Position numbers and translations under genes: made by a program
The notes under the pieces: model-generated
What the model was told of the DNA's origin: nothing
Databases searched by the model: none
What the model saw: the letters and a program-made list of their open reading frames with translations, nothing else
Part shown: positions 10,867-60,948 of the stretch, one piece after another
How positions within the stretch are numbered: position 1 is the first letter of the stretch
Layout of the letters: every line of letters starts with the position of its first letter
DNA from: Streptococcus parauberis NCFD 2020
Lineage (GTDB): Bacteria; Bacillota; Bacilli; Lactobacillales; Streptococcaceae
DNA: 64,000 nt
Assembly (NCBI RefSeq): GCF_000187935.1
Contig: NZ_AEUT02000001.1
Span: 1,736,001 to 1,800,000 of the forward strand
Reading direction: 5' to 3'

Positions 10867-11187
10867 TCACTTATCTCCTAATCTTAGTTGGTTGGTTAAA
10901 TTAACCAGATATTTTAAACGATTAATTTCAAGATTAACCATTTCTTTACCTTTTTCAGTGATAATATAAACTTTCCTTCTGCTATCCTCACTAGGAACAG
11001 ATTTGATCCACTTTTGTTTGAGTAAATTTTCAATAGCTCCATACATGGTTCCTGCAGCAATTCTAACGTCACCATTACTCATGTCTTCTACCTTTTGCAT
11101 AATTACATAGCCATGTGCAGGTTCTAGTAATGCTAGTAGAACATAGAAAGTTGTTTCAGTTAGTGGAATATTTTTATCTCTTTTCAT
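10867..11187 (-). CDS. PadR-family transcriptional repressor
   Basis: 106 residues with the PadR winged-helix signature: LTETTFYVLLALLEPAHGYV, the MQKVEDMSNGDVRIAAGTMY stretch with GTMYGAIENLL, and EDSRRKVYIITEKGKEM. It is short (subfamily 2, no long C-terminal domain). It heads the operon with DUF2812. A strong promoter with a repeated 12-bp box lies upstream, suggesting autorepression. Confidence 0.9.
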   Translation of the reverse strand: MKRDKNIPLTETTFYVLLALLEPAHGYVIMQKVEDMSNGDVRIAAGTMYGAIENLLKQKWIKSVPSEDSRRKVYIITEKGKEMVNLEINRLKYLVNLTNQLRLGDK

Positions 11188-11202
11188 TATATCACCTCAA
11201 TG

Positions 11203-11253
11203 TACAGTTTAACTTTATATTTATATTATATACAGTTTAACTATATAAGTCAA
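11203..11253 (-). promoter_or_regulatory. Promoter of the padR operon with two TACAGTTTAACT boxes
   Basis: On the minus strand TTGACT (11253-11248), a 17-bp spacer and TATAAT (11230-11225) form a near-consensus promoter. The plus-strand box TACAGTTTAACT occurs twice in the same orientation, at 11231-11242 inside the spacer and at 11203-11214 just downstream of the start point. A repressor bound there would block transcription, so these are good candidate PadR sites. Confidence 0.75.
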
Positions 11254-11282
11254 CTGCTTATTAAAAAATATTATAATCTAAC

Positions 11283-11309
11283 AAAAAAGCCCCAATTATA
11301 GGCTTTTTT
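11283..11309. terminator. Intrinsic terminator
   Basis: AAAAAAGCC-CCAATTATA-GGCTTTTTT directly after the glycosylase stop codon on the minus strand. Confidence 0.75.
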
Positions 11310-11310
11310 C

Positions 11311-11883
11311 TTATCTCCACGTCTCCCGATCAGGAACCAAACCCCGTTTGCGAATTCTCGAAACATGCTGATTGCCTGCTACATAAAAACAGAGTGGCGC
11401 CTCGCGCCAGAGGTCTGTACATGTCACGCCAATTCTAGCACGACTGGCAATTTTTTTCGGCTTAAGACTTGGCCTAAGATGCAGGGCGCAGTTTTCACTA
11501 TCTTGCCCATCCCAAGCTCGAGTGATCCCAAAAAGTCGAGTCAGTTTGCCCGGCCCATTGCCTTCAGGCAAACCATCAGGCGTTTCTAAAGCTCTAATAA
11601 GGACTGCTTCAGGGACTTCTTTCTCTCGCGTCACTAAATTAAGCATGTTGTGCCCATGAATCTGATAAACATACCAATGACCCGCTTCCAGATACATGGA
11701 CTCATTTTTGGGAGTCCGACGTCCTTGGGCACTGTGACAAGCACTGTCAAAAGCACCTAGATAAGCCTCGGTTTCGACAATCCGCCCTAGCTTCTCATCA
11801 CCTAAATAGAGTTCCATCCCAAGCAAAGCCTTGGCTGCTCCTTGCGTATCCGTCAAAAGTAATTTTCTAAACCACTGGTCCAT
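11311..11883 (-). CDS. 3-methyladenine DNA glycosylase (AAG/MPG family)
   Basis: 190 residues, normal for bacterial AAG. Removes alkylated purines in base-excision repair. Family motifs are clear: LLTDTQGAAKALLGMEL, GRIVETEAYLGAFDSACHSA (the active-site Glu lies in this loop), YVYQIHGHNMLNLV, VLIRALETP, GNGPGKLTRLFGIT and the closing RIGV. I start at the ATG at 11883, eight bases after AAGGTGGGGAG; a GTG at 11892 overlaps that ribosome site and is less likely. It is a single-gene transcript. Confidence 0.92.
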   Translation of the reverse strand: MDQWFRKLLLTDTQGAAKALLGMELYLGDEKLGRIVETEAYLGAFDSACHSAQGRRTPKNESMYLEAGHWYVYQIHGHNMLNLVTREKEVPEAVLIRALETPDGLPEGNGPGKLTRLFGITRAWDGQDSENCALHLRPSLKPKKIASRARIGVTCTDLWREAPLCFYVAGNQHVSRIRKRGLVPDRETWR

Positions 11884-12078
11884 CGTTAGCACTCCCCACC
11901 TTTTTATTACACTTACTATATCTCACTTGCTTAACAAAATGCAAGGATCAGCTGTGCTTTAGAGTCAATTCTAATAGATGGAATATTCGACAAAAGACGA
12001 ATAATTTTTCATAAAAATAGTTTCTGATGGTACAATATTACAATATTTGATAATATTGTACTAATTTTGGAGGTATCT

Positions 12079-12396
12079 ATGGATATTAAAGCTTATCAGC
12101 AATGGGTCAGTGATTTTTACAAGAAGCGTCACTGGTACCAGTACAACCCTTTTATCCGCAGTAATTTTTTGACTGAGGAAGTCGGTGAACTTGCGCAAGC
12201 TATTCGCAAATATGAAATTGGACGGGATCGTCCGGACGAAACCACCAGGACTGAAAGAGAAAATCTAGAAGATATTAAGGAAGAACTAGGAGATGTGTTA
12301 GATAATATTTTCATCCTAGCTGACTTGTATCAAATATCCTTGGAAGACATCGTCCAAGCCCACAAAACAAAATTAGAAAAGAGATTTGAAGAGTGA
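12079..12396 (+). CDS. MazG-like nucleotide pyrophosphohydrolase
   Basis: 105 residues from the ATG at 12079, directly preceded by GGAGG; the in-frame TTG upstream is part of the leader. The MazG fold is shown by FLTEEVGELAQAIRKYE (the E-x-x-E metal-binding helix) and the second metal motif EELGDVLDNIFILADLY (E-x-x-D). Such enzymes hydrolyse abnormal or excess NTPs. Its stop overlaps the start of the LOG-family gene, so the two are coupled. Confidence 0.88.
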   Translation: MDIKAYQQWVSDFYKKRHWYQYNPFIRSNFLTEEVGELAQAIRKYEIGRDRPDETTRTERENLEDIKEELGDVLDNIFILADLYQISLEDIVQAHKTKLEKRFEE

Positions 12397-12953
12397 ACAT
12401 CACAATTTTTTGCGGAGCGAGCACAGGCAATAACCCTATTTATGGTCAAAAAACAATCCAGCTAGCTGAATGGATGGCTGAGACAAAACATAATCTTGTT
12501 TTTGGTGGTGGAAAGATTGGTTTAATGGGAATCATGGCAGATACGATTATTGCCCATGGAGGCCACACAACTGGTGTCATGCCTGCTTTTTTGAAGGATC
12601 GGGAAATTGCTCACGCGGGTCTAACCGAACTAATTATTGTCAACAATATGTCAGACCGTAAAGCAAAAATGATGACCTTAGGCGATGCCTTCATAGCCTT
12701 ACCTGGAGGCCCAGGAACACTCGAAGAAATATCAGAAGTCATTTCTTGGTCTCGTATTGGTCAAAATGATAGTCCCTGTGTTCTCTATAACGTCAATGGT
12801 TATTTTAATGACTTGAAAAATCAGTTTGACCACATGGTTTCAGAAGGTTTTCTCAGCCAAAAAGACCGTAATAAGGTACTCTTCACAGATGATATCTCAA
12901 AAATTGAGAGCTTTATCACTGATTATCAAGCACCAAGCATCCGTAACTATTAA
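12393..12953 (+). CDS. LOG-family nucleotide 5'-monophosphate phosphoribohydrolase
   Basis: 186 residues, starting at a GTG that overlaps the upstream stop (GTGA). The Rossmann-like LOG fold is recognised by IFCGASTG at the N-terminus, LVFGGGKIGLMGIMADTII, MSDRKAKM, and the hallmark ALPGGPGTLEEISEVI. Bacterial members cleave AMP-like nucleotides or cytokinin nucleotides to base plus ribose 5-phosphate. Coupling to a MazG-type NTP hydrolase suggests shared nucleotide housekeeping. Confidence 0.9.
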   Translation: MNITIFCGASTGNNPIYGQKTIQLAEWMAETKHNLVFGGGKIGLMGIMADTIIAHGGHTTGVMPAFLKDREIAHAGLTELIIVNNMSDRKAKMMTLGDAFIALPGGPGTLEEISEVISWSRIGQNDSPCVLYNVNGYFNDLKNQFDHMVSEGFLSQKDRNKVLFTDDISKIESFITDYQAPSIRNY

Positions 12954-12985
12954 GAAAAAAGCCTTTCACAAGGCTTTTTTCTTTT
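12952..12985. terminator. Intrinsic terminator, both directions
   Basis: AGAAAAAAGCCTT-TCAC-AAGGCTTTTTTCTT between the LOG gene and the convergent cyclophilin-like gene. Confidence 0.85.
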
Positions 12986-13331
12986 AACTTGTTAATGTTA
13001 GAAGTAATTCTTCATTACTTAATAAGTCCACTATTTGATTGTCAGAAAGCTTAATTCTTCCTAATTTCGTATAAGACCAGCTATTTTGTCCGTAAAAGAT
13101 AACAATATTATTGCCATTATAAAGGACAATATCTCCTACTTCTGTTTTTATATGTTTATCACTTCTCGGATAATTCTTTCCTAAAAATCCGACTTGTTCA
13201 AAACCACCATATTTTTCCATCTTTACGTTAATTGGACTTTTTTGAGCATCTTCATTCAAGGTATACACAGCCTGATTTAATTCCCAATCAACTGGGATGT
13301 CATTGTCTTTAATTTTTAATTTCATTGACAT
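12984..13331 (-). CDS. Cyclophilin-like fold protein
   Basis: 115 residues, no signal peptide. The pattern (M-K-L-K-I-x-D near the start, an ELNQAVYTLNED stretch, GGFEQVGFLGKNYPRSD, then GDIVLYNGNNIVIFYGQNSW and a GRIKL ending) matches the small bacterial cyclophilin-like beta-barrel family often found near oxidoreductases or hydrolases. It is 30 bp downstream of the alpha/beta hydrolase on the same strand and probably in its MerR-controlled transcript. Enzyme activity unknown. Confidence 0.75.
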   Translation of the reverse strand: MSMKLKIKDNDIPVDWELNQAVYTLNEDAQKSPINVKMEKYGGFEQVGFLGKNYPRSDKHIKTEVGDIVLYNGNNIVIFYGQNSWSYTKLGRIKLSDNQIVDLLSNEELLLTLTS

Positions 13332-13361
13332 ATTACCTACTCTCTTCGATAAGCTTAAATA

Positions 13362-14357
13362 TTAGTTTAAATAATTCTCAAAAAATTGTTCTATTTTATC
13401 AAATGGTATAACATCAGTTTGATCGTATAAATCAGTATGAGAAGCCCCAGGGATAGTTAACATCTCTTTATTCTCAATATAATTACTGTTAGTAATCATA
13501 TTATCAAATGCATCTTTTCCAAAATAATAACTATGTGCCTGGTCACCATGAATAACTAGTACTGCACTACGAATTTCATTACTATATTGTAAAATTGGTT
13601 GGTTCAAGAAAGACATCGTTCCAACTACATTCCATCCCTCATTAGAATTTAAAGATCTTTCATGATAGCCACGATTAGTTTTATAATAGTCAAAATAATC
13701 TTTCACAAAAGACGGAACATCTTCTGGAAGGGGATCAACAACGCCTCCTGCACGCGCATAATCTCCATTTTTATAATCAAGAGTTCGTTGATGATTTAAT
13801 AATTTTCGTGTTTCATATCTTGCTTTTTCGCTATCATCTGCGTCGAAGTAGCCTTTAGCATTAACTCTTGTCATATCATACATGGTAGAAACAAGTGTTG
13901 CCTTTATACGTGTATCTAAAGCAGCAGCATTAATTGCCATTCCACCGAAGCCACAAATACCTATTATTCCTATTTTATCAGTATCAACAAACTCATGAGT
14001 AGACAGAAAATCTACAGCTGCTTGAAAATCTTCTGTGTTAATGTCAGGAGAAGCCATATTTCTTGGATAACCTCCGCTTTCTCCTATGAAAGAAGGATCA
14101 AAAGCAAGTGTTGCGTACCCTTTTTCAGCCATTATTTGAGCATAAAGTCCGCTTGATTGTTCTTTAACAGCGCCAAATGGACCTGACACTGCAATAGCTG
14201 ATAATTTCTTGTGCTCTTTATTTAAAGGAAGATAAAAATCACCTGCAAGTGTAATTCCGTATCGATTTGTAAAAGTAACCTTCTGATGTTTTACAGCGTT
14301 ACTTTTTTCAAATGTTTTATCCCACTTTTCCTCTAGAACTAACTTTTCTTGTTGCAT
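13362..14357 (-). CDS. Alpha/beta hydrolase of the YcjY/dienelactone-hydrolase type
   Basis: 331 residues, no signal peptide. The nucleophile elbow reads GIIGICGFGGMA, with Cys where most relatives have Ser, as in YcjY and dienelactone hydrolases. The catalytic His is in IPGASHTDLYDQ and the acid is probably in VIHGDQAHSYYFG or nearby. Substrate unknown. It is driven from a MerR-type promoter divergent from a small MerR regulator, so it is likely induced by a small electrophile or drug that it helps to detoxify (inference). A cyclophilin-like gene follows. Confidence 0.85.
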   Translation of the reverse strand: MQQEKLVLEEKWDKTFEKSNAVKHQKVTFTNRYGITLAGDFYLPLNKEHKKLSAIAVSGPFGAVKEQSSGLYAQIMAEKGYATLAFDPSFIGESGGYPRNMASPDINTEDFQAAVDFLSTHEFVDTDKIGIIGICGFGGMAINAAALDTRIKATLVSTMYDMTRVNAKGYFDADDSEKARYETRKLLNHQRTLDYKNGDYARAGGVVDPLPEDVPSFVKDYFDYYKTNRGYHERSLNSNEGWNVVGTMSFLNQPILQYSNEIRSAVLVIHGDQAHSYYFGKDAFDNMITNSNYIENKEMLTIPGASHTDLYDQTDVIPFDKIEQFFENYLN

Positions 14358-14410
14358 AATTAATATCCTCCATATCTGTTTTACAACATCTAATATTAAA
14401 TGTTATAATC

Positions 14411-14441
14411 ACTATAACACCTAAAGTTGACTTTAGGTCAA
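14411..14441 (-). promoter_or_regulatory. MerR-type promoter/operator of the hydrolase
   Basis: Minus-strand TTGACC (14441-14436) and TATAGT (14416-14411) are separated by 19 bp. The spacer contains the perfect inverted repeat ACCTAAAGT-TG-ACTTTAGGT. It sits between the hydrolase and the divergent MerR gene and is the second such 19-bp-spacer element in this window. Confidence 0.85.
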
Positions 14442-14457
14442 GGAATAAGGAGAAAAA

Positions 14458-14895
14458 ATGTACACAATTGGAGAAGTTTCAAAATTATTTAATTTACCTG
14501 TCTCTACATTACGTTATTATGATAAAGAAGGATTTTTCCCATTTCTAGAAAGAACAAACGGTATCCGTAAATTTAGTGAAACTGAAATTGAAGCACTAAA
14601 TATTATTGAATGCTTAAAATTTGCTGGTTTAGAAATCAAAGATATTAAATTATTCATTGATTGGTGTAATCAAGGTCCGTCAACATATCGTCTAAGAAAA
14701 GAACTTTTTAAAGAAAAGCAGGCCCATCTTGAAGAAGAAATGAAACAATTAGAAAAATACTTAGCAATGGTGAAATTCAAATCTTGGTACTATGACCAAG
14801 CTATTATTGATGGCACAGAAAAGAAAATACAAGCAAAATTGCCAAACAACCTACCAAAAAACATCCAAGAATTATATAATCTAGCACATTCATAA
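14458..14895 (+). CDS. MerR-family regulator (AdhR-like)
   Basis: 145 residues. MYTIGEVSKLFNLPVSTLRY followed by YDKEGFFPFLERTNGIRKF is a classic MerR helix-turn-helix and wing, followed by a long coiled coil (about 75-115). There is no large effector domain and no cysteine pair; one Cys lies near residue 60 (IIECLKFAG) and one in DWCNQG. AdhR/NmlR-type regulators that sense aldehydes or electrophiles through a cysteine look like this. AAGGAG precedes the ATG. Confidence 0.9.
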   Translation: MYTIGEVSKLFNLPVSTLRYYDKEGFFPFLERTNGIRKFSETEIEALNIIECLKFAGLEIKDIKLFIDWCNQGPSTYRLRKELFKEKQAHLEEEMKQLEKYLAMVKFKSWYYDQAIIDGTEKKIQAKLPNNLPKNIQELYNLAHS

Positions 14896-14944
14896 AAAAA
14901 TAACTATTCAAAATAAGATAGAAAGATAATTAATGATAGAGCAG

Positions 14945-16975
14945 TCACTTATTTAAATGAATAATATTAGTTGCAAGCTCTATAAATTCCTCATCATGGG
15001 TTACAATACAAATTATCTTTTTCTTTTTTAGGAGTCTTGCTATCATTTCTTTTAACTGCTGTTTTGAGGATTTATCAAGGTTACTTGTTGGTTCATCAAG
15101 TAAAAAAATATCTTTACTCTCATCAGACAAAGATCGCAAAATCAATGTTCTTTGTTTTTGACCTAAAGACACATTTTTTCCTTGAGAGTCGATTTGATAA
15201 CTAAGTGGTAAACCAATAAATTTATTTTCTTTATAATTAATTCCTGAACTAAGATTAAACAAATCAAAATTGATGTTTTTATCAATGCTTCCAGCAAATA
15301 AACGGAATTCATTTGAATAAATTCCTATATAATCACATATATTTGTATGTTTGAGAGTTTTATACTCGGAATTATTTATAATAATTTTCCCTTTTGTTGG
15401 AGTAATAAAACCTTGTAAGATTTTTAAAAATGTAGACTTACCTGATCCATTATCTCCAGTAATAACATACAGACTTCCCTTTTCTAAATTAATATTGATA
15501 TCATTAAAGATTGTCTTATCTAGATATTGCATTGATAGTCCTTCAATCTTGATTGATTCTATCTCAGTTATCCCTAAAGAATATATATCCATACTAGAAA
15601 TAAAATTTCCCTTATCTTTCATACTTATATATTCAAGTGAGAACCTACTTCTACTATAAGAAAGCCAAGTAGTTAAGATAGGTTGTAAAATTGTAGTCAA
15701 CAATGAAATGAGTAATATTATATTTGAATTATCAACATAACTCGTCTCAAATCGATAAAAATTTGAGAATATCAATATACAAGTTGCTAATCCAATTATG
15801 TATATTGAGATAGATGTAAAGATACAATTTGAAAGTTCAGCTGCTTCCAGTTTTACAGTAAGTAAACTTTTAATTTTTTCTATGAACTCTTTCTTAAATG
15901 ACTCTTCTTTTTTATTAGCGGATATATCATACAAGCCATCGATAGAACTTTCAACCAAATACGTGAAATTTGAACTTGCTATCACATATTTCCTTTGATT
16001 TTCCTCAATTTTAGATAACTTTTTATAATTATAAAAAAATAAAACTACGAGGGAACATATTGTTAATATTGCTAGTGAAAGGTTCAAGGATAAGAGGCAC
16101 AATATTATTATCATCAACATAAATAAATAAATTGAAAGATAAAATTTGTGTATTACTCCTGAGGCTGATGTTAAAAGGTTCCAAAAATAACCCATTACAA
16201 AATCATAATTTTTACTATTTTCGTAATTATATAGCCTTTCACAATAGTATTTTTCTATTGTTTTTTGGAGAAAATCATTTTCAATTATTGTTTTTAATTT
16301 TGTATCAGTCTTAGTAATTACATAATAAATAAACATTACAAATAATATTACTAAGGTCGTCAATACTTTTAGTTGAGTTTCTTCGAGAAAAACATGCGTT
16401 AAAATATATTGTAAAAATAATGCTATTACCATAGGCAAAATTATTCTAGAAATTCCTGTACATACTAAAAGAAATTTTTGTTGTGTCTTTAAATTTGAAA
16501 TAAAACTACAATAGAGTTCAGAGGAAACATCCTCTTTAGCTTCATATGTGTTTAAACTTTCCAGACACTCTTTAGCTAACTCGGGAATTAATATTATTCC
16601 TAAGAACTCATCATTAAATTCATCAATTTTCTTAGTTGAAATTTTAGAAAATGCAGGATCAGAAATCGTTAGCTTATTTTCTGTTATATTAATAATCACA
16701 ATATAATGCGGTAAAGAGTTTCTTTCTACTACTGCAATAAAAGGTCGTTCTATTTGTCTAAGTGATTTTATATCATCTATCTTATATGAATTGGAACTAA
16801 TATTATATTTCTTTAAAACATTTTCGATATCTAGAAGAGACATTCCTTGAGTAGACTTAACATTAAAACTTTCATTTATATTTTCACTTGAAATCTCAAA
16901 GAATGATAAAAGAGTCTTAGTACATGCTAAACCACAATCTAATAGAGATACTTGTTTATGATGTTCTATTGTCAT
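14945..16975 (-). CDS. C39-peptidase ABC transporter (bacteriocin/peptide processing exporter)
   Basis: 676 residues from the ATG at 16975, which places the peptidase motif right at the N-terminus as usual; an ATG at 17017 would add 14 residues overlapping the upstream gene. Order of domains: C39 peptidase (residues 1-140) with oxyanion Gln8, catalytic Cys14 in LLDCGLAC, His in SLPHYIVII and Asp in ISDPAFSK; then a six-helix exporter domain; then an ATPase with GDNGSGKST (Walker A), VSLGQKQR (signature), IFLLDEPTSNLD (Walker B) and CIVTHDEE (H-loop). It should cut leader peptides after a double-glycine-type site and export the core. It ends the operon that starts with the two small precursor genes at 19249-19462. 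Confidence 0.92.
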   Translation of the reverse strand: MTIEHHKQVSLLDCGLACTKTLLSFFEISSENINESFNVKSTQGMSLLDIENVLKKYNISSNSYKIDDIKSLRQIERPFIAVVERNSLPHYIVIINITENKLTISDPAFSKISTKKIDEFNDEFLGIILIPELAKECLESLNTYEAKEDVSSELYCSFISNLKTQQKFLLVCTGISRIILPMVIALFLQYILTHVFLEETQLKVLTTLVILFVMFIYYVITKTDTKLKTIIENDFLQKTIEKYYCERLYNYENSKNYDFVMGYFWNLLTSASGVIHKFYLSIYLFMLMIIILCLLSLNLSLAILTICSLVVLFFYNYKKLSKIEENQRKYVIASSNFTYLVESSIDGLYDISANKKEESFKKEFIEKIKSLLTVKLEAAELSNCIFTSISIYIIGLATCILIFSNFYRFETSYVDNSNIILLISLLTTILQPILTTWLSYSRSRFSLEYISMKDKGNFISSMDIYSLGITEIESIKIEGLSMQYLDKTIFNDININLEKGSLYVITGDNGSGKSTFLKILQGFITPTKGKIIINNSEYKTLKHTNICDYIGIYSNEFRLFAGSIDKNINFDLFNLSSGINYKENKFIGLPLSYQIDSQGKNVSLGQKQRTLILRSLSDESKDIFLLDEPTSNLDKSSKQQLKEMIARLLKKKKIICIVTHDEEFIELATNIIHLNK

Positions 16976-17543
16976 AGTAGTTAGCTTTCTCAATTGTGAC
17001 ATCACCATAGGCATCAACTTTTATAGTGCTGTCATCGGATTCATCGGTTTGAGGTATATGTAATAACTTAGAGTCTTGATTTAGCTTAATATCATAAGAA
17101 CCATTGAATGTCTTTGGTACCAAAACATTTACATTACCATTCCAAGGGTCAATAAATATTTCCTTAGCAATTGCATCTTTCCTCAGATTAATAGTTACAT
17201 TTAATACGTCTTTCCCTTCAGTTGAAGTTGACCACTTAAATCCCTTCTTTGTGAAAGGGATATAAACTTCTGAATCTGATACCTTTGCTTTCTTTAATGA
17301 CTTCAGAGTCTCTTTAGAAACTATTCCTTCTGCTAAAATAGTTGTCACCTCTTGATCCGTTTCATGCAAGGCGACTTTTAAGGGTTGCTCAGTTCCATAT
17401 AAAACGATAGACTTAATATTTTTGTCTTTTAGTATCCAAGATTTTGATAGTTTTAAATTTGTCTTGCCGTTATTAAAACTTGTAACTACTGCTACCATGA
17501 TCATAACAATTAGTAAAACTATCGGTAAAATTATTTTTTTCAT
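16956..17543 (-). CDS. Membrane-anchored protein of the peptide operon, unknown function
   Basis: 195 residues: one N-terminal membrane helix (ILPIVLLIVMIMVAVVTSF) and an extracytoplasmic beta-rich domain with repeated short strands (GNVNVLVPKTFNGSYDI, STIKVDAYGDVTIEKA), which resembles DUF4097-type right-handed repeats. Such proteins sit beside bacitracin/lantibiotic-type ABC pumps. It lies between the ABC permease (8 bp upstream) and the C39 exporter (overlapping by 20 bp), so it is part of the operon; immunity or accessory export is a guess. Confidence 0.6.
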   Translation of the reverse strand: MKKIILPIVLLIVMIMVAVVTSFNNGKTNLKLSKSWILKDKNIKSIVLYGTEQPLKVALHETDQEVTTILAEGIVSKETLKSLKKAKVSDSEVYIPFTKKGFKWSTSTEGKDVLNVTINLRKDAIAKEIFIDPWNGNVNVLVPKTFNGSYDIKLNQDSKLLHIPQTDESDDSTIKVDAYGDVTIEKANYYDNRTS

Positions 17544-17551
17544 TAAACCCC

Positions 17552-18259
17552 TTACTTAAATTCCTTTCTAATAAATATTGTATAACTTGCAGAAAAGTAA
17601 ACTATTGAAAAAACAAGTGCTACTGATGATGTTTTAGTAAAAAAGACATCATTAACACAAATCTCTTTTAAATTTGTCATCATTAAAAAGTCATCCATAA
17701 AATTAGTTTCAAACATTGAGTCGATTACAAAACCAAACAATTGGTCAAACAGTAAAATAATTATGATGTAACTTATATATGCCTGATAACTTCTATCCAA
17801 ATAAATAAAAATAAAAATACAAAGCATAATAAGGCAACTGTATATTGGTAATTGATTACAAAAAATTGTAAACAAATAGTATCCAGATACTTGGAAACCA
17901 ATTATTCCTCTTATAATTGCAATTAAACATAAATTAAGTAATATAATAGCAAAAGAAGTTATTAATGTAGCTGCTACTTTGTAAATAAAAATTGATGACC
18001 TAGAATTCGATTTTATTATTACATTATTTATAGTTCGATAATATATATCTTCACCCCAAAAAAAGTTTGTGATACTCATAAAATATAATGGTATAAAACT
18101 AGTCAACATCGACTGAGTTTCCCAATAACCTTCTTGTCCTGATTCATTTCTAAATAGATAGGAAAATACCAATGAAATAGCAACGATCAACAAGATAGTT
18201 CCTCTAAAACTGCTTTCTTTAGTAGCTCTAAAAAAATCTGCTTTAAAATAATTAAACAT
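17552..18259 (-). CDS. ABC-2-type permease of the peptide operon
   Basis: 235 residues with six hydrophobic segments (ILLIVAISLVFSYLF; LTSFIPLYFMSITNFFW; VAATLITSFAIILLNLCLIAII; LPIYSCLIMLCIFIFIYL; ISYIIIILLFDQLFGFVI; SSVALVFSIVYFSASYTIF), the plan of BcrB/LanFEG-type immunity or export permeases. It overlaps the ATPase gene by 8 bp. If the ATPase is dead because of its stop codon, this permease is orphaned. Confidence 0.8.
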   Translation of the reverse strand: MFNYFKADFFRATKESSFRGTILLIVAISLVFSYLFRNESGQEGYWETQSMLTSFIPLYFMSITNFFWGEDIYYRTINNVIIKSNSRSSIFIYKVAATLITSFAIILLNLCLIAIIRGIIGFQVSGYYLFTIFCNQLPIYSCLIMLCIFIFIYLDRSYQAYISYIIIILLFDQLFGFVIDSMFETNFMDDFLMMTNLKEICVNDVFFTKTSSVALVFSIVYFSASYTIFIRKEFK

Positions 18260-19148
18260 TCATCAACTTCCTTTCCTGAAGTAAAGCCATATAATATTCT
18301 TCAAAAGAGGTTTTTCTTGAATAAATTCCATAAATGACTAGATTCTCCTCAATTATGCCTTGAACAATATTATTAATTGAATCTGTGGAAGAATTAATTT
18401 CAATTCTATTAGAAACTATTCTACAACTATAATTATTTTTATTTAAAAGTCGATAGCAATCATCAATATTATCTACTTCTAATATTATTTTTGAAGATAA
18501 ATATCTTTGAATACTTGCCTTTGTAATATTTTGAATAATTTTTCCTTTATGCAAAATAATATATCGATCCACTACGAGTTCTAGTTCAGATAAGATATGA
18601 CTGGATATAAGAATTGTCATATTGTAATTTTTTTTCAGGTTTAACAAAAGCTCTCGCATTTCTTTAATTCCTACTGGGTCAAGTCCATTAATAGGCTCAT
18701 CCAATATCAGTAACTGAGGAGAATCAATTATGGACAGTCCAATAGCCAAACGTTGCTTCATTCCTAAGGAGAAATTTTTTACTTTCTTATTTCTTTCAAC
18801 CTATTTTAAACCTACTAAATTTAGAATTTCATCAATTTTTTTATTACTTTTTGGAAAACCTAGTCTGAGCATATGATACTTTAAATTATCATATGCTGAC
18901 AGATTGGGATAAAATGCTGGCGATTCAATAATGCAGCTTAAATTCTTAATTTTAGATTTATCTATTACACCACCATCGGATTTTATTAGTCCTGCAATAA
19001 TCCGAATTAATGTTGTCTTACCAGCACCATTTTCACCAACCAGACCACAAATTTCTCCTTTATGAACTGTGAAACTAAGATCATTTAATGTTATACGTTT
19101 ATTGTAGTATTTTGTTATATTTTGAATATCTATTAAAGCTTGATTCAT
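18252..19148 (-). pseudogene. ABC transporter ATPase, split by one in-frame TAG
   Basis: One frame of 299 codons encodes a BcrA-type ATPase: IQNITKYYNKRITLNDLSF, Walker A GENGAGKTT, then ILNLVGLK and a TAG at 18801-18803, then VERNKKVKNFSLGMKQRLAI (signature), LLILDEPINGLDP (Walker B) and ISSHILSELE (H-loop). The stop falls between the helical domain and the signature motif, so neither half can bind and hydrolyse ATP alone. An ATG in the signature (LGMKQR) would allow a 169-codon second piece. It is a nonsense mutation or a base-call error; everything else in the frame is intact. Confidence 0.85.
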
Positions 19149-19180
19149 TTACTAAACCTCAACATCTCTTATTAAAATAT

Positions 19181-19214
19181 AAAAAAGTCGATAGTAAAGT
19201 GACAAACTATCGAC
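19181..19214 (-). terminator. Intrinsic terminator/attenuator between precursor genes and ABC genes
   Basis: On the minus strand GTCGATAGT (19214-19206), a 10-nt loop and ACTATCGAC (19195-19187) are followed by six T. It lies 35 bp after the second precursor stop codon and just upstream of the ABC ATPase start at 19148. Partial read-through here would give many precursor transcripts and fewer transporter transcripts, a common design in bacteriocin operons. Confidence 0.8.
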
Positions 19215-19248
19215 GAAACAATTACTAATTATTTAATCTTATAGATAA

Positions 19249-19344
19249 TTAATCAAAACAGAAATATCCTATTTTTCTTATATTAAAAACACAAAGACGG
19301 CCTGCTGTAATCATCTTCTTTTCATTATTTGATAATTTTTTCAT
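19249..19344 (-). CDS. Small double-glycine-type precursor peptide 2 (31 aa)
   Basis: ATG at 19344 with GGTGAG upstream, TAA at 19251-19249. The leader MKKLSNNEKKMITAG carries the double-glycine consensus positions Leu-12, Ser-11, Glu-8, Ile-4 and ends Ala-Gly. The predicted core is RLCVFNIRKIGYFCFD, 16 residues with Cys3 and Cys14. It is a clear paralogue of the next gene: the leader differs at two positions, and the cores share R-x-C near the start and FC-x-D at the end. The C39 exporter of this operon is the natural processing partner. It is too short for standard gene callers. No modification enzyme is encoded nearby, so a disulfide loop is the simplest mature form. Confidence 0.85.
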   Translation of the reverse strand: MKKLSNNEKKMITAGRLCVFNIRKIGYFCFD

Positions 19345-19363
19345 TTTTCTCACCAATTATATT

Positions 19364-19462
19364 CTAATCCCAACAAAAAAGTCCTTTTCGTTTAGGAAGT
19401 CCAACGATACAGAATCGTCCTGCTGTGATCATTTTCTTTTCTTTTTTCGATAATTTCTTCAT
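19364..19462 (-). CDS. Small double-glycine-type precursor peptide 1 (32 aa)
   Basis: ATG at 19462 preceded by GGAGAAAG, TAG at 19366-19364. The leader MKKLSKKEKKMITAG fits the double-glycine consensus L-S-x-x-E-x-x-x-I-x-(A/G)-G. The predicted core RFCIVGLPKRKGLFCWD is 17 residues, net positive, with cysteines at positions 3 and 15. It is 19 bp upstream of its paralogue and opens the operon. The cysteine spacing (11 residues here, 10 in the paralogue) and the FC(W/F)D end are conserved while the middle varies, as in bacteriocins or peptide pheromones. I know of no characterised peptide of this type. Confidence 0.87.
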   Translation of the reverse strand: MKKLSKKEKKMITAGRFCIVGLPKRKGLFCWD

Positions 19463-19862
19463 CTTTCTCCTTTCAATTTTTAAAATTATTCAATTATTTT
19501 ATAAGAAAGCTTAGTCTATAGAGAATGTTTTGTCACTTTAAGAATCTCTAAGACTTACTTTTCAAATGGCTCTCTTAACCAATTTGTAAATATGTTATTA
19601 TTTATTTTTTATACAGTCAATGCTATTTTTATGGGAATAATCTGACTTTTATAAATCTGAAACTCTCTTTTCGACAAGAATACCAGTATCACTAGATACA
19701 ATAGCTAAATTGAGATTTTCAATTGGATATTTCTCTAATAATCAACTTTTTATGTATCACAATAAATAATGACCTAAATTAATAAATAATAGGGCTTCTC
19801 CTCCTCTAAAACCTATATCCTACTCCTTGTTTATGCTATGATATTAAAGCGGAGGTTTAATT
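19463..19862. other. Intergenic upstream of the precursor genes
   Basis: 400 bp that must hold the promoter of the peptide operon (minus strand) and that of the FAD-binding protein (plus strand). I could not pick a convincing peptide promoter; an A/T-rich TATAAAAT-like element lies about 35 bp upstream of the first precursor. A 30-codon minus-strand fragment at 19649-19741 (ending VSSDTGILVEKRVSDL) has coding-like composition but no start, and looks like a gene remnant. Confidence 0.35.
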
Positions 19863-21296
19863 TTGACGAAGAAGATTGCAATTATTGGGATGGGTGTCAG
19901 TGGTTTAGCTGTTTTACTGGCCATCTCTCAACAGACAAAAGAGTATTTACAATCAATAGAAATTAGCTGTTTTGATGACAGTGAACATTTTGGCCGTGGT
20001 ATTCCTTTTCAGGAAGATGATGACTCAGCCTTAATTAATTCACCACTCGATGATATTTCTTTTGATTACCATCAGATGATGGATTTTATGGACTGGCTAA
20101 AAGTAAACAAGTACGATACAAGTGTGACCTACACCTCACGCGCCCTCTATGGAAGATACATGAAAGAACGTGCTCATCAGCTCATTACACAACTACCAGT
20201 TACCATTATCAAAGAACCCGTTGAGTCTATTAGCTACTCGCCTTCGACTCAGACCTTCCAATTAACCCTTACTAATACAAGGTCCCCTCAAATATTTGAC
20301 CATGTTCACTTGGCCTGTGGAGCACTTCCCGTTGCTGACCCCTATCAGCTAACCGGGCATTCTTCCTACATAGCAGATCCTTATCCAATTCAAAAGGAAT
20401 TAGCCACAAAGAGCTGGGATAATAAAGATGTAGCAATTATTGGCACCGGCCTAGCAGCAGTTGATGTGATCAAATGGCTTTTATTGAGAACAACTGTTAC
20501 TATCAAAGCCTTCTCACGTAGCAACTACTTTCCGACTGTTCGCATCACCCAAGGCCCCGACATCACCTGGCACCATCTGACCGACCAAACCATTCAAACA
20601 CTCATTGACAGCAAAAGCGTCAGCTATCAGGAACTTGATCAACTATTCCAAAAGGAATTGCAGGCACTAGGCTTTAGTAACTGGGAAAAAACAAAAAATG
20701 AATTCTTGTCAGAAGGGATTGCTGGTATCAAGCTGTCGCTTGACATGGCCGAGCATCTCTATCACTTACAGCAACTAGCATCTCGACTGGTCGATTACTT
20801 AACCGACCTGTGGCCCTTAATGTCCCCTGCGGACCGCCATTCCTACCAAGAAAACTATGGTAAAGCCATCGTGAATTTACGAAACCCCATGCCTGAAGAG
20901 TCAGCTCAAACTATTTTAGAAGCGGCAGCCCAAGGTAGATTGAACATCATTTCTGGTGTTGAGGAAATCAACGTAAAGGGCGACAAATTCCTGGTTGGCG
21001 AAGCAATCACTGTTGATCAAGTTATTAATGCTACTGGCTACCAACTGACCGAAAAGACAATTGAACTGGCGACTCCATTCTTGCAAAACATCGTTAAGCA
21101 AGAACTAGCTCAAATCGATGACCTTGGAGGGCTGTCTGTCAGACCAGAGACTATGCAAGTCATGTCACCTAAATATGGTGCAATGCCAACTCTATTTGCA
21201 CATGGAGCGCTGATTAATGGTGTCATTTACCAAAACAACTCCACCATTAAAATTCAAAAGATGGCAGAGCGAGGAGTTGTCTACTGTAATATTTAG
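19863..21296 (+). CDS. FAD/NAD(P)-binding protein (NAD_binding_9 family)
   Basis: 477 residues. The N-terminus is a dinucleotide-binding Rossmann motif (KKIAIIGMGVSGLAVLLAI, G-x-G-x-x-G), followed by FGRGIPFQ-type residues typical of this family, a second nucleotide-binding stretch (DVAIIGTGLAAVDVIKW) and a closing VINATGYQ. The start is a TTG seven bases after GGAGG. Family members are predicted flavin oxidoreductases of unknown substrate, often in streptococci. It stands alone with its own terminator. Confidence 0.85.
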   Translation: MTKKIAIIGMGVSGLAVLLAISQQTKEYLQSIEISCFDDSEHFGRGIPFQEDDDSALINSPLDDISFDYHQMMDFMDWLKVNKYDTSVTYTSRALYGRYMKERAHQLITQLPVTIIKEPVESISYSPSTQTFQLTLTNTRSPQIFDHVHLACGALPVADPYQLTGHSSYIADPYPIQKELATKSWDNKDVAIIGTGLAAVDVIKWLLLRTTVTIKAFSRSNYFPTVRITQGPDITWHHLTDQTIQTLIDSKSVSYQELDQLFQKELQALGFSNWEKTKNEFLSEGIAGIKLSLDMAEHLYHLQQLASRLVDYLTDLWPLMSPADRHSYQENYGKAIVNLRNPMPEESAQTILEAAAQGRLNIISGVEEINVKGDKFLVGEAITVDQVINATGYQLTEKTIELATPFLQNIVKQELAQIDDLGGLSVRPETMQVMSPKYGAMPTLFAHGALINGVIYQNNSTIKIQKMAERGVVYCNI

Positions 21297-21303
21297 AATA
21301 AAA

Positions 21304-21328
21304 GAAAAGCCTTATCTAAAGGCTTTTT
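21304..21328. terminator. Intrinsic terminator, both directions
   Basis: AAAAGCCTT-ATCT-AAAGGCTTTTTTT between convergent genes. Confidence 0.8.
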
Positions 21329-22363
21329 TTATTTACCATGTTTTTCCAATAGGAAATTGTTAATAGCTTTTTGACTTTCTGTATTGGCTTTTTCATTTGC
21401 GGATAAGCTACCACCAGTTCTCATCCTCATCTCAGGTGTACTAAGAACACCATTTCCAAGAAAGAGGTGACCAGCATCTTTATAAAGATTAATTTCTGTA
21501 TCAGGTTTTTGCTCTTTTATTTTTTTAGCCATAGCTGGACTATTCCACATTTGGTCATCTTCCCCTACAATAATCATAATATGAGCTTTAACATCTTTTA
21601 CAGGTATGACTTTTTTTACCAATGATTTGTCACTCTTGATAGCCGTATCATAGGTTTCCTTATATACAATTGGTCCTTTTGTGAGCATCGGCCAAAGCAT
21701 ATTTTTTACCAAAGCAACAAATGAACTCTTCTTAATATCAATATATGGTAGTTCTTTATCTTGCCAAGTCCATGAAGACCCGTAATCCTTAAAATCCAAA
21801 CCGGCAAAATTATACGCAGATGGGGCTGTCAATACAAGATTTGAAATATCATCATATTTGCTGGCAAGATTCAAAGTATATTCTGCGCCTTTTGACCCAG
21901 CTAAAACTGTTATCGGCCCTTTTTCAACCTTCTGTTCCTGAATATAATTGAGGACATCTTCAAATTGTTCTAAAGGAATTCTTGCCAATGTTTTTTGTTG
22001 ATTGTTCATACCATACATAAAGACTGCCAATGTCTCATATCCCTCTTTAGCTAAACGCTCAGCCTCTCCAAAGTTAGGACTCCCTTCAGATCCGCCATAG
22101 CAAACCACAATTCCCTCATATTTTTTCTGATCCGGAACCAAGTGGAAGCCTTGCATAGTCCCCTCATCCACATAAGTTACCGATACACCAGCTATCTTAG
22201 TAGGATAATAACTCACATTGGTCACGTCGGTCAAATACTTAGGGGTATTTGGATCACCATCTCCATATTTTGCATCATTCGTTTTTCGAAGTGCTATAAT
22301 AACACCACCAAATACAAGTACAAGACAAAATATAACAATTATTATTTTAATAAAATTTTTCAT
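21329..22363 (-). CDS. Membrane-anchored BAAT-type acyl hydrolase
   Basis: 344 residues. An N-terminal helix (IIIVIFCLVLVFGGVIIAL) without a lipobox anchors or exports it. The rest is an alpha/beta hydrolase of the acyl-CoA thioesterase/BAAT C-terminal type: nucleophile elbow LAGSKGAEYTL, acid in IIVGEDDQMW, His in KDAGHLFLGNG. The natural substrate outside the membrane is unknown; relatives occur next to drug or bacteriocin resistance genes. Monocistronic. Confidence 0.8.
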   Translation of the reverse strand: MKNFIKIIIVIFCLVLVFGGVIIALRKTNDAKYGDGDPNTPKYLTDVTNVSYYPTKIAGVSVTYVDEGTMQGFHLVPDQKKYEGIVVCYGGSEGSPNFGEAERLAKEGYETLAVFMYGMNNQQKTLARIPLEQFEDVLNYIQEQKVEKGPITVLAGSKGAEYTLNLASKYDDISNLVLTAPSAYNFAGLDFKDYGSSWTWQDKELPYIDIKKSSFVALVKNMLWPMLTKGPIVYKETYDTAIKSDKSLVKKVIPVKDVKAHIMIIVGEDDQMWNSPAMAKKIKEQKPDTEINLYKDAGHLFLGNGVLSTPEMRMRTGGSLSANEKANTESQKAINNFLLEKHGK

Positions 22364-22615
22364 CTATTTCACCTTTATTCTATTCTTTCCGATAGCTGAC
22401 ACCTTGCCTAAACAACAATCAAAATCCCCCTTTAAGTACTTAATAGACAACAATTTCTTTATTTAACAAGCAAATTATATTATTGTTTTACAATAATATC
22501 AATGCCTTATGAAATATATTATATCACTGATGAGTATCCATATCAGAAAACTCAACTTTCCTAACTAGAAACTTTTTTGAAAAGTGATTTCTCAAATAGA
22601 ACTTTATTTTCTTAT

Positions 22616-22678
22616 AAGGATTTAAAAATGAATCAAGGTCCTTCATTCTGAGACGCCATTTTATATGGCGTCTTTTTT
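22616..22678 (+). other. Seven-codon ORF fused to a strong terminator
   Basis: AAGGA is followed by ATG at 22628 encoding MNQGPSF and a TGA whose last base starts the hairpin AGACGCCAT-TTTAT-ATGGCGTCT (22651-22673) with a T-run. This looks like a transcription-attenuator leader or a small RNA end. No plus-strand gene follows within reach, and on the minus strand the hairpin has no T-run. Purpose unclear. Confidence 0.45.
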
Positions 22679-22692
22679 ATTGGATATCTCCA

Positions 22693-23181
22693 TTACAATT
22701 CAATAATTGTTGCTGGATAGTCGATTGCTGCCAAGAATGTCAGTAAATCATTGGTAGCTAAGAAAATTGTTTTTTCATTCGTATTGGGGTGGAAACTCAT
22801 TCGTTCTTCAGGAATAATCTCCTTGTCAATATAAACTGAGATGTCGTGGTCCTTGTTATTTAGTAAACCAAAAGGTGAGACGACACCTGGTGGTAAGAGC
22901 ATCTTCTCATATAGACTGTCACTTGAAGCCATGCGCATTCTATTAGCTCCGACAACCTCCTTAAAAGCATCCATATCTAACATCTTTTGGTCATCCATTA
23001 TCAAAAGATAAAACTGTGTTTTTTTCTTATTGGTTAAAAACATAGTTTTTGTCCGGACGCCGTCTATCCCTTCAATGAAAGAATCAGCTTGTTCAGTTGT
23101 TAAAGCAGGTTCATGTCCCACAATCTGAAAAGCAATGCCTAGTTCATTTAACTTGTCTGCAACAGGCTGATATAAGTCCAT
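22693..23181 (-). CDS. YbaK/ProX-type prolyl-tRNA deacylase domain protein
   Basis: 162 residues. I start at the ATG at 23181, which has AAAGGAG at the right distance; a TTG 6 bp upstream is closer to that site. The free-standing editing domain hydrolyses mischarged Ala- or Cys-tRNAPro. Landmarks are FQIVGHEPALTTEQA, GVRTKTMFLTNKKKTQFYLL, the family Lys in this segment, and GVVSPFGLLNNKDHDISVYI (G-x-V-S-P-F/x-G). It follows the EamA transporter by 15 bp and probably shares its transcript. Confidence 0.88.
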   Translation of the reverse strand: MDLYQPVADKLNELGIAFQIVGHEPALTTEQADSFIEGIDGVRTKTMFLTNKKKTQFYLLIMDDQKMLDMDAFKEVVGANRMRMASSDSLYEKMLLPPGVVSPFGLLNNKDHDISVYIDKEIIPEERMSFHPNTNEKTIFLATNDLLTFLAAIDYPATIIEL

Positions 23182-23196
23182 AAGCAACTCCTTTAC

Positions 23197-24099
23197 TTAT
23201 CCTTTATTTGAAGTATAAACACCAATCATAATAGCCAAAACACCAAAAATTTGCAAGCCCGTAAAAGATTCGCCTAAAATAAGCACACCAAACACAATAG
23301 CCACAGCCGTCGATACGCCAATAAAGGAAGCTGTTCGATTGACACCAATTTTGGCAATAGCCACATTTGATAAGAAGAAGGCCAAGACTGAACAACCAAT
23401 ACCTTGATAAAGAATGGCTAGCGCAAAAGTATTATTTTCAAATGGCAGAATGATGAGTTGTGATAAGTTTTGATGAACGATTGCTTCGCCTATAGCCAGG
23501 CTAGCGAATACCAGAAAACCAAGCAAAATCATGACGACGGTTAATTCTACTCCTGTAAAATGGCTAGCCTTGTCTACATAAACACAATAGAGGGCATAGG
23601 ATAGTACTGCTAGAAAGAGCATGGCATACCCTAGCACCGAAAAACTAGCTGACATGCCTACGGCCATAACACTAAGCAAAACACCTGAAACAGTTATTGC
23701 AATACCGACAATCTGATGCTTACTTGGCTTTTCTTTCAATATCAAAGTTGCCGCAATTAAAGCCATGACTGGAATTGAGGCTAAAAAGGCTCCACTTTCG
23801 GATGCTGTAGTTAAATTGATACCTAATGTTTCACCTAAAAAGTAGAGAACGGGACTAAAAATTGCTGCCAAAAGGACATACTTAATGGACTTGCCTTTAA
23901 AATTGACTCTTATTAATCCTATCACAAATAGGATTAGGAGAAAAAGTGCAGCCACTAGAAAACGCCAGCCAAGTAGAGCTAAAGCTGATGCTGTTTGGCC
24001 AGCTTCTTTAGTGAAAAGGTAGCTTAGCCCAAATAAAATTTCACATCCAATGGCACAAAGCGACCCTATGATAAGGTCTTTTTTGGTATTGTTTGTCAT
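23197..24099 (-). CDS. EamA/DMT-family transporter
   Basis: 300 residues, ten predicted helices in two EamA repeats of about 140 residues (first repeat ending KEKPSKHQIVGIAITVSGVL, second ending GESFTGLQIFGVLAIMIGVY). Members export or import metabolites such as amino acids or nucleosides; the substrate cannot be read from sequence. It begins 12 bp after the DinB gene. Confidence 0.85.
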   Translation of the reverse strand: MTNNTKKDLIIGSLCAIGCEILFGLSYLFTKEAGQTASALALLGWRFLVAALFLLILFVIGLIRVNFKGKSIKYVLLAAIFSPVLYFLGETLGINLTTASESGAFLASIPVMALIAATLILKEKPSKHQIVGIAITVSGVLLSVMAVGMSASFSVLGYAMLFLAVLSYALYCVYVDKASHFTGVELTVVMILLGFLVFASLAIGEAIVHQNLSQLIILPFENNTFALAILYQGIGCSVLAFFLSNVAIAKIGVNRTASFIGVSTAVAIVFGVLILGESFTGLQIFGVLAIMIGVYTSNKG

Positions 24100-59238: not shown

Positions 59239-60948
59239 TTAAGCTTCTTTACGTTTACGATTGAGAGCCAAACCACCAGCTCCAATAATAATAGCCATTG
59301 CAGAGGCTGTAAAGAAAGGATTTGCCATCACATCACCAGTTGAAGGCAAATGGTTTTTAGCATCTGTAGACGCTTTGTGACTGTCAGTCATCGGTGAAGC
59401 AGCCATCGCTTTGCCTAAACCTTGGTTCTGTGGGTGAGCAATGTTCATCTTAGCTAATTGGTCAGCCAATTCTTTTTGAAGGCGTGCAATTTCAGCTTGG
59501 AAGTCGGCAATTTCTCTGTCACTATGATTTTTATTAGTATCAAAGTCTTTTTGTAGATCTTCCATTTCTTTAAGTAATTTATCATTTGCTAAGTCTTTAT
59601 CAGCTAGTAAGGCTTTTAAACGATCCATTTCTGCTTCAAGTTCCGCTTTGTCAGCTTCCAAGTCTATCGCTTTTTTCTCTAAATCAGCTTTTTCTTTTTC
59701 TAAATCTTTTACCTTAGTTCCAAGCTCAGCAACTTCTTGTTCTAAATTAGCACGTTGCTCTTTCACCTGGTTTAATTCTGATTGAGTCGCTTCTAAGTCA
59801 GATTCCAGTTCTTTAATCTTATCTGCTTGAGCTTTAACTTGTGCGTCTGATTTTTCTTTTTGCCCTTTAAGGTCTTTAAAGGCAACCCCACCATCAGCAA
59901 CTTCTTGTTCTAATTGAGTAATCTTTTGATTAGCAGCTTCATTAGCTTCTTTTAAACTTGCCAATTGACTTTCTAGGTCTGAAACTTTAGTCAAAGCAGT
60001 TTCTAATTGTCCGTCAATAGCATCTTTTTCTGCAAGAGCTGCTTGATAGTCCTGGGCTTTTTTGTCAAATTCTTCTTTAGCTTGTTGTAGGGCATTTGAT
60101 AATACAGTGACGTTATTATTCAGTTTTTGTGCTTCAGCAGCTTTCAAATCAAATTCTTCTTTAGCTTGATTTAAAGCATTACTTAAAACAATAACACGAT
60201 TGTTAGCAACTTCACCCTCTTTAGCTTTTTGATCAAACTCTTGCTTAGCTTGTTCTAAGGCATGGGTCATGACCTTAGCTTCGTTTTTGTATTTATCAGC
60301 TTCTTTTTGAATTGACTCTCGTTGAATAAATAGATTTGCAGCATCTTTAACTACATGTCGGTATCTGTTCTTTTCCTTAGCAAGTCGTTCATTTAACTTT
60401 ACTTCTTTATCTTCTAATTCTTTAATTTTTAAATCTCGTTTAACAATTTCTCTGTTTTTATCAGCAATGATATTATTAGTGGTTTTTAACTGCTTTTCTT
60501 GATCATAAAATTTTTCAAGAACATTTGCTTTTTCTTTTTCAATTTCCTTAGAGTACTTTCTTGAATTTTCAAAAAGACTTTTATACATATCTTTTTGTTT
60601 TCTGAAATCTTTTATCCTTTCGATTGCTACTTCATTCGCTACCCCTTTAAAAATTGGTGCATTTTCTGGAGAAACAATGTTCAAATTACTTTTACCATTC
60701 AGCTTTAAATAGTATTCAAGTAGATTATCAGATGCATCATTTACAATTTTTTTTACAATATCTCTTCGAATTCTTTTATCTGGTCCAGTTCTTCGAAAGG
60801 TATTATATGCTGATAGGCTATCCAATTTAGATTTTGCTTCTACATCACTTGAAAGTACTCCAAGACTTTGCATGGCGGTACCTGCTAATACTGTAGCAGT
60901 GACCGCTTTTCTAAGTGCGTGTTTGCGGGCTTTAATTTTTTTAGCCAT
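59239..60948 (-). CDS. simA: M-like surface protein (SimA-type), LPXTG anchored
   Basis: 569 residues. Signal peptide without YSIRK (ALRKAVTATVLAGTAMQSLG, cleavage near VEA-KS). A variable N-terminal part (40-220) is followed by three 28-residue repeats starting HALEQAKQEFD (229), NALNQAKEEFD (257) and NALQQAKEEFD (285), exactly four heptads each. A long coiled coil (about 300-490) follows, then a wall-spanning part and LPSTG at 534-538 with a hydrophobic helix and RKRKEA tail. Sortase A would anchor it. M-like proteins bind fibrinogen or other host proteins and block phagocytosis. Divergent from an Mga-type activator. AAGGAG precedes the ATG. Confidence 0.9.
   Translation of the reverse strand: MAKKIKARKHALRKAVTATVLAGTAMQSLGVLSSDVEAKSKLDSLSAYNTFRRTGPDKRIRRDIVKKIVNDASDNLLEYYLKLNGKSNLNIVSPENAPIFKGVANEVAIERIKDFRKQKDMYKSLFENSRKYSKEIEKEKANVLEKFYDQEKQLKTTNNIIADKNREIVKRDLKIKELEDKEVKLNERLAKEKNRYRHVVKDAANLFIQRESIQKEADKYKNEAKVMTHALEQAKQEFDQKAKEGEVANNRVIVLSNALNQAKEEFDLKAAEAQKLNNNVTVLSNALQQAKEEFDKKAQDYQAALAEKDAIDGQLETALTKVSDLESQLASLKEANEAANQKITQLEQEVADGGVAFKDLKGQKEKSDAQVKAQADKIKELESDLEATQSELNQVKEQRANLEQEVAELGTKVKDLEKEKADLEKKAIDLEADKAELEAEMDRLKALLADKDLANDKLLKEMEDLQKDFDTNKNHSDREIADFQAEIARLQKELADQLAKMNIAHPQNQGLGKAMAASPMTDSHKASTDAKNHLPSTGDVMANPFFTASAMAIIIGAGGLALNRKRKEA

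Follow-up and report, generated by a model that had tools for sequence, protein, structure and literature searches.

The two peptide genes studied here, P1 and P2, are neighbours on the minus strand of the window, by which we mean the whole 64,000-nucleotide stretch of DNA that was analysed, a portion of the 2.16-Mb single-contig genome of Streptococcus parauberis NCFD 2020. A preliminary description of this DNA had reported two adjacent ORFs of 32 and 31 codons with ribosome sites, quoted their leaders and cores, and placed downstream the ATPase and permease of an ABC transporter, a membrane-anchored protein, and an exporter whose C39 residues are complete. All were found as described, and the leaders and cores were confirmed from the sequence. 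Behind the peptide genes, the same strand carries the ATPase first, then the permease and the membrane-anchored protein, and last the C39 exporter:

19364..19462, minus strand: P1 precursor gene, 32 codons (family profile E 1.0e-19)
19418..19462, 19367..19417 and 19364..19366, minus strand: P1 leader (MKKLSKKEKKMITAG), core (RFCIVGLPKRKGLFCWD) and stop codon
19249..19344, minus strand: P2 precursor gene, 31 codons, MKKLSNNEKKMITAG / RLCVFNIRKIGYFCFD (family profile E 7.6e-19)
19181..19214, minus strand: terminator-like hairpin of 9 bp, then six T (stem-loop 19187..19214), between the peptide genes and the ATPase
18252..19148, minus strand: ABC ATPase frame, broken in frame by TAG at 18801..18803; the stretches left open are 18801..19148 and 18252..18761
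17552..18259, minus strand: ABC permease, 235 aa, no Pfam family
16956..17543, minus strand: membrane-anchored beta-rich protein, 195 aa, LiaG/DUF4097-like
14945..16975, minus strand: C39 peptidase/ABC exporter, ATG at 16975 (Peptidase_C39 PF03412 E 8e-23; ABC_tran E 9e-21)

P1 and P2 are real ORFs. Each ATG is preceded by a ribosome site (GAAAGGAGAAAG for P1 and GGTGAGAAAA for P2), the two peptides are 61% identical, and P1 is predicted to be cut after Ala-Gly. Neither peptide matched a Pfam or NCBIfam family, P1 also matched no PHROGs family, and the three family peptides tried against PHROGs gave no match. The hairpin behind the peptide genes has an energy of -13.1 kcal/mol (z -2.8) and was equalled by one of 200 shuffles; the terminator scan did not list it, its loop having 10 bases and the scan a maximum of 8. 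A nearly identical stem-loop is present in the S. suis-like locus L015, where the stretch gave z -0.85 with 38 of 200 shuffles as good, and a different, strong hairpin lies at the corresponding place of L014 (z -5.0). The promoter scan gave no more matches than in shuffled sequence.

The cassette has a G+C content of 27.1%, against 35.6% in the remainder of the window. Its gene set is present as first described, but the cassette is not intact: a single in-frame TAG, previously overlooked, stands at codon 116 of 299 in the ATPase frame, so the ATPase protein is interrupted in this strain. Under the curated cut-offs, both ATPase pieces match TIGR03740, a lantibiotic-protection ATPase model (E 4e-25 and 3e-25), as well as PmtC (E 6e-19 and 5e-25). 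The AlphaFold model of the 195-aa LiaG-like protein (pLDDT 82.7) has a single N-terminal helix with strands after it, and Foldseek linked it weakly to putative adhesins (best E 7e-6, TM about 0.35). The exporter is the sole Peptidase_C39 match in the whole genome. Its residues 8-661 align with solved 'ABC-type bacteriocin transporter' structures such as 4ry2, and Q8, C14, H90 and D106, which we take to be the C39 active-site residues, are invariant across six related exporters.

Regulators and thioredoxins of the types found in relatives gave no match in positions 11001..24000 of the window. A distant TlpA-like thioredoxin (29% identity) is encoded elsewhere in the genome, and the genome's one ComR match (C1:1921426-1922097) lies away from the cassette and has a TAA inside the matched stretch. 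No ComR-box was found near the peptides; the one match in 64 kb is at 41610, with a chance expectation of 0.69. By eye, no histidine kinase or response regulator was recognised in the cassette ORFs of the window, nor in L014 or L015. Genes that had no family-library scan were identified by eye from their translations, and in this way no LanM-, radical SAM- or YcaO-like gene was seen in the listed cassette ORFs of the window and relatives, in agreement with the earlier statement for this locus. PADLOC returned nothing but ABC/ATPase-type matches.

For the neighbouring gene at 19863, good relatives occur in two of 40 other genomes, with dissimilar flanks in this empty-site comparison. A similar alpha/beta-hydrolase-like gene occurs near the peptide cassette in the window (13362-14357) and at L016:4307-5278, possibly by coincidence. 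At 59239-60948 of the window an M-like surface protein was recognised by eye, its C-terminus bearing an LPSTGD sorting motif.

Distribution and sequence of the peptide family

Relatives were sought in genome sets holding one genome per species, using a family profile of six peptides, including P1, P2 and peptides from five of the 9 other matched Streptococcus genomes. Among 284 Streptococcus genomes the profile matched with E <1e-10 at 15 places in 10 genomes, the window strain among them; at E up to 1 some match was present in 136 of the 284, and we judge these to be mostly noise. The relatives at E <1e-10 in 9 other Streptococcus genomes, together with the one found in G101 with P1 as sole query (E 1e-8), indicate that the family exceeds chance. 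At the order level (n=395), 37 genomes matched at E up to 0.05 and 14 at E <1e-4, the latter spanning three genera, with nine of the 14 in one genus (f3 g19). For G421, a member of this genus, the best match of ribosomal protein S9 was chain 7nhk, presumably from the E. faecalis ribosome, and the genus is on this account taken as Enterococcus. At the class level (n=398), five genomes matched at E up to 0.01, of which three are convincing: two Streptococcus genomes and G844, from a further family of the class, with 5-6 tandem peptide copies. In the plasmid collection, the exporter of L134 found 22 records, all with <60% identity, one of which spans 80% of the query.

Two weaker matches were accepted: G126 (E 0.006), because it lies directly upstream of a C39 exporter, here split into two frames, and G569 (E 0.001), on context. 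Several others were not accepted. Two of the eight genomes matched by P1 alone (G072 and G237) had in-frame stops or no two-cysteine core, the profile match in G073 was not accepted, the match in G925 fell within a long frame carrying a stop, and G792, a borderline case, gave a leader-only match with a C39-type exporter gene close behind. The remaining Streptococcus matches at E 0.01-1 were not accepted and not individually inspected.

Family members are built from a leader of ~15 residues ending in Ala-Gly (Gly-Gly in some non-Streptococcus relatives) and a core of 12-23 residues in which two cysteines are conserved. Double-glycine leaders have a hydrophobic/acidic pattern followed by a Gly-Gly-type site; the family leaders follow this pattern, with L4, I12 and A14-G15 conserved, and have Lys rather than a hydrophobic residue at -7. 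In 11 Streptococcus-type peptides M1, K3, L4, A14, G15, C18, G27 and C30 are invariant, and K9, I12 and W31 are nearly so. The Ala at -2, pointed out earlier as a departure from the usual Gly, is thus no oddity of the strain, with Ala-Gly in 11/11 of these peptides. The core starts with Arg, Gln, Lys or Trp, one to two residues ahead of the first Cys. The cores had also been called cationic, which fails as a family trait: the predicted charge at pH 7 ranges from +2.7 to -1.3 over the 11 cores computed. No family peptide matched Pfam or NCBIfam above cut-off (three weak matches were obtained for non-Streptococcus peptides). We found no account of the family in the open-access literature searched, and core-motif searches returned nothing relevant.

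Non-Streptococcus loci carry 2-10 tandem peptide genes each. The seven genes of L136 share the core WVCVLWGAVCWG, L141 and L142 have ten genes each with several core types, and the first genes of L141-L143 encode one cysteine only. Pairwise codon differences within seven tandem arrays were 235 synonymous and 42 non-synonymous (the pairs are not independent), an excess that shows selection on the reading frames; core codon differences among seven S. suis-type loci were synonymous only (6 vs 0, all pairs). In L144 (8748-9906) two long-leader two-cysteine peptide types alternate three times, in the order A-B-A-B-A-B, and this alternation suggests a two-peptide product. Three further loci (L145:9136-9285, L146:9288-9596 and L147:9539-9727) combine the short leader (MKKL/MRKL...AG) with different, longer cores, so the leader may serve a wider superfamily. 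These loci, from G481, G530 and G596, were not counted as members: their exporters and thioredoxins are related, but the peptides are other and longer.

Cassettes and regulators in relatives

All 12 non-Streptococcus loci (L134-L144 and L157) have the full set, with 91-100% coverage for the ATPase, the permease, the LiaG-like protein and the exporter alike, and 11 of them encode thioredoxin-like proteins. Two of these thioredoxins resemble the bacteriocin-maturation proteins PedC/BrcD (TIGR01295; E 2.5e-10 and 1.5e-7), at 31-40 bits vs a cut-off of 120. Permease relatives occur in every compared cassette but L089 and L145-L147. Between two genera, the LiaG-like proteins matched in profile-profile comparison with a probability of 99.9 (E 2e-37), and the exporters share 32% identity over their full length. 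The LiaG-like protein of L134 gave weak matches, under cut-off, to LiaG (E 9e-4) and DUF4097 (E 3e-3).

Among the 10 peptide-bearing Streptococcus loci, a full exporter is present in five (the window, L014, L079, L071 and L073); it is reduced to a C-terminal remnant in L016, and four others gave partial ABC matches only. A TlpA-like thioredoxin accompanies three of them (L014, L079 and L071). The homologue search proposed in the preliminary description was to look for cores that vary beside a constant leader and C39 gene, and this is what was recovered: cores vary while leader and cassette recur, with the C39 exporter in 5/10 Streptococcus and 12/12 other loci. Damage is visible in several places, the LiaG-like gene of L014 being frame-broken, the exporter and ATPase of L089 both split, and the ATG at the usual start missing in G119. 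LiaG-like proteins are encoded in 24 of the 284 Streptococcus genomes, all 10 peptide genomes included, and in 14 of the 24 they occur without the peptide (six of the close type, E <1e-50, and eight of a distant type), so they are not exclusive to the peptides.

In seven loci (L074-L078, L080 and, from an S. mitis isolate, L093) the regulator ComR is retained together with the ATPase, the permease and the LiaG-like gene, with no peptide or thioredoxin match; three of the seven have a full-length exporter. The DNA ahead of the ATPase has no room for a peptide gene in six peptide-less loci, and in L093 the gap is 38 bases. We presume that protection-like genes without peptides are the pattern of immunity-only bacteriocin loci. 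Elsewhere (L081-L084, L087 and L088), the ATPase and LiaG-like gene stand behind another small membrane-protein gene, without such peptides, and L081 has between one and three consecutive LiaG-like copies; a wider protection-like module is a possible reading. From the 16 loci of the named-genome scan, L094, L098 and L101-L106 were set aside as distant ABC proteins for which the scan showed no such peptide.

ComR-family regulators were identified in L014-type loci (PF18710 E 1.9e-64) and in L134 (E 3.6e-60), and an RNPP_C regulator in L015-type loci (E 1.6e-8). The non-Streptococcus loci have ComR in 8/12 and AgrB/AgrA in 3/12, the Agr-like genes lying directly behind the large mixed two-cysteine arrays of L141-L143. 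The regulator module is exchangeable, being ComR, RNPP-type (PlcR/RNPP) or Agr, and the cassette is otherwise constant.

Palindromes of the form GACANNNNTGTC (the ComR-box) are followed by a tiny ORF in all 11 chosen ComR regions (8 non-Streptococcus and 3 Streptococcus), which were picked after a first inspection of boxes and ORFs. We take these ORFs to resemble ComS pheromone genes. In the f3-g19 ComR loci (L134, L136-L140 and L144) the last four residues of the ORF are WW and two others in 7/7 cases, e.g., MLELLGLWWEI and MGGFDIFGIWWVQ; when each region was dinucleotide-shuffled 500 times, 0-3 of the shuffles gave an ORF of this kind, for a pattern chosen after viewing the ORFs. The tiny ORF of L135 carries NWS, and the Streptococcus form is MFGF[A/E]VFLSLSFWF[S/Y]G. 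L134 and L136 have two palindromes and two such ORFs each (in L134 the second stops short of WW), L144 has three of both, and the remaining two-box loci have one ORF. The f3-g19 loci with box and WW-ending ORF are possible ComRS circuits outside Streptococcus. The set of ComR_TPR regulator, box and tiny ORF was thus found in the relatives' ComR loci and not in the window. Five of the six peptide-less loci other than L093 keep the palindrome, and none of the six has the tiny ORF; L093 has both, without peptides. Because the ComR loci own a separate ComS-like ORF, the signal is probably another peptide.

Candidate function and comparison with known systems

We interpret the P1/P2 family as very small, quorum-controlled, disulfide-looped bacteriocin-like effectors, with a probability of roughly 60%, and place it as a new family within the C39-exported bacteriocin-like peptides, bacteriocin activity being putative. 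From the leader and exporter, the C39 exporter is predicted to cut after Ala-Gly and export a core of 16-17 residues. In oxidised form the cores would have calculated average masses of 2036.5 for P1 and 1992.4 for P2. Outside the cell the two cysteines would close into one disulfide, as the conserved cysteines and thioredoxin-like partners predict, and in many relatives thioredoxin/PedC-like proteins may help this closure. The core would then act on the envelope of competitors. Resemblance and the peptide-less loci suggest that the ABC ATPase/permease pair, similar to lantibiotic-protection and PmtC proteins, and the LiaG-like protein protect the producer; of these immunity candidates, the window ATPase is interrupted. 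In relatives, the cassette would answer to a separate quorum-sensing module of ComRS, PlcR/RNPP or Agr type.

The bacteriocin reading draws on the family with its conserved cysteines, the recurring cassette, the PedC-like thioredoxins, the peptide-less protection loci, the ComS-like ORFs, purifying selection on the arrays and, as the main argument, exchangeable regulators beside constant two-cysteine peptides, which favours an effector over a pheromone. It is weakened by the presence of the exporter in only 5/10 Streptococcus loci, the ATG loss in G119, the LiaG-like proteins found without peptides, the variable charge, the very short cores and, in the window, the interrupted ATPase and the lack of a regulator or thioredoxin match nearby. 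Bacteriocin and pheromone had both been proposed at the outset. The family exists, and its pheromone side is disfavoured by the separate ComS-like ORF behind the ComR-box. C39-exported pheromones of the ComC/BlpC kind, whose looped core would be sensed by its own species and switch genes on, are nevertheless suggested by the report that short secreted peptides linked to C39 exporters are often pheromones (PMC7595303) and by the AgrB/AgrA-type genes beside the arrays of L141-L143, which also suit signalling. We consider this unlikely: regulators swap while peptides stay, some loci keep protection-like genes but no peptides, and arrays with as many as ten copies suit a bulk product better than a signal.

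Still less probable, indeed very improbable, are modified RiPPs with a thioether or other crosslink of the Cys-Trp end in place of a simple disulfide loop. The conservation of G27, C30 and nearly always W31 in the Streptococcus type would fit them, the disulfide being itself a prediction, but modification genes of the three kinds looked for were not seen by eye (family libraries were run on some proteins only), and thioredoxin-like genes recur in nearly all non-Streptococcus loci. A further alternative, on balance doubtful although the strongest of those considered, concerns this strain rather than the family: P1 and P2 may be no longer made or inactive, as a decaying remnant, whatever their relatives do. 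The stop in the ATPase, the want of a ComR, RNPP or thioredoxin match in 11001..24000 and the decay common in relatives (the LiaG-like gene of L014, lost exporters, the split genes of L089) speak for it, whereas the peptide frames, leaders, cysteines and full exporter are all intact and what is broken is a gene for protection rather than for the product. The window-strain locus may be partly decayed. Returning to the bacteriocin-like effectors, we see about an even chance for the wider statement that these are previously undescribed ultra-short (12-23 residues) disulfide-looped bacteriocins that occur in Streptococcus, in apparent Enterococcus and in one or more further families of the class, with a C39 exporter, PedC-like oxidoreductases, ABC/LiaG-like immunity, arrays of up to ten genes and exchangeable quorum modules that include ComRS in apparent enterococci.

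The family cores are very short relative to known unmodified bacteriocins. Nearest in working principle is bactofencin A, described as a class IId bacteriocin of 22 residues with a single disulfide; its N-terminal tail is highly cationic and its immunity of DltB type (PMC6081437), and it is made with an ABC transporter and an accessory transport protein (PMC5465099). Like it, the family core is short, apparently unmodified and predicted to form a single disulfide loop; unlike it, the cores span 12-23 residues with variable charge and are accompanied by ABC and LiaG-like genes. No DltB-like gene, as sought for a bactofencin-type locus, was noticed by eye among the cassette ORFs. The pairing of an exporter with a thioredoxin-like accessory for a (here predicted) disulfide peptide recalls the PedC/BrcD-assisted pediocin-like bacteriocins, but the thioredoxins fall under the TIGR01295 cut-off, and against Pfam and NCBIfam the cores gave nothing above cut-off. 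In the pneumococcal rtg system, an RRNPP-type regulator with its own pheromone is reported to control a C39 exporter and exported peptides, with longer leaders recognised via residues -22 to -18 (PMC7018657); an RRNPP-controlled C39 locus is common to both, whereas the leaders here have 15 residues and end in Ala-Gly. According to a survey of complete genomes, the ComRS-type system is confined to Lactobacillales; most cases are in Streptococcus, and the enterococci are represented by PrgX (PMC9765709). The ComR paralogues ScuR and SarF of S. salivarius are described as driving bacteriocin genes from a locus that encodes the ABC subunits SptAB, and their authors reported seeing no short coding sequence nearby (PMC6703854). 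ComR-family control is the likeness; unlike ScuR/SarF, the ComR gene of the family is followed by a box, a tiny ORF and a complete peptide cassette.

Should the loops kill, they would probably rank with the shortest unmodified bacteriocins and be easy to obtain by peptide synthesis, and the natural core variants would form a ready structure-activity series. With regulators that can be exchanged and loci that have no peptides, bacteriocin cheating and rewiring are open to direct testing. Circuits of ComRS type in the apparent enterococci would extend the system beyond the range given in the survey (PMC9765709).
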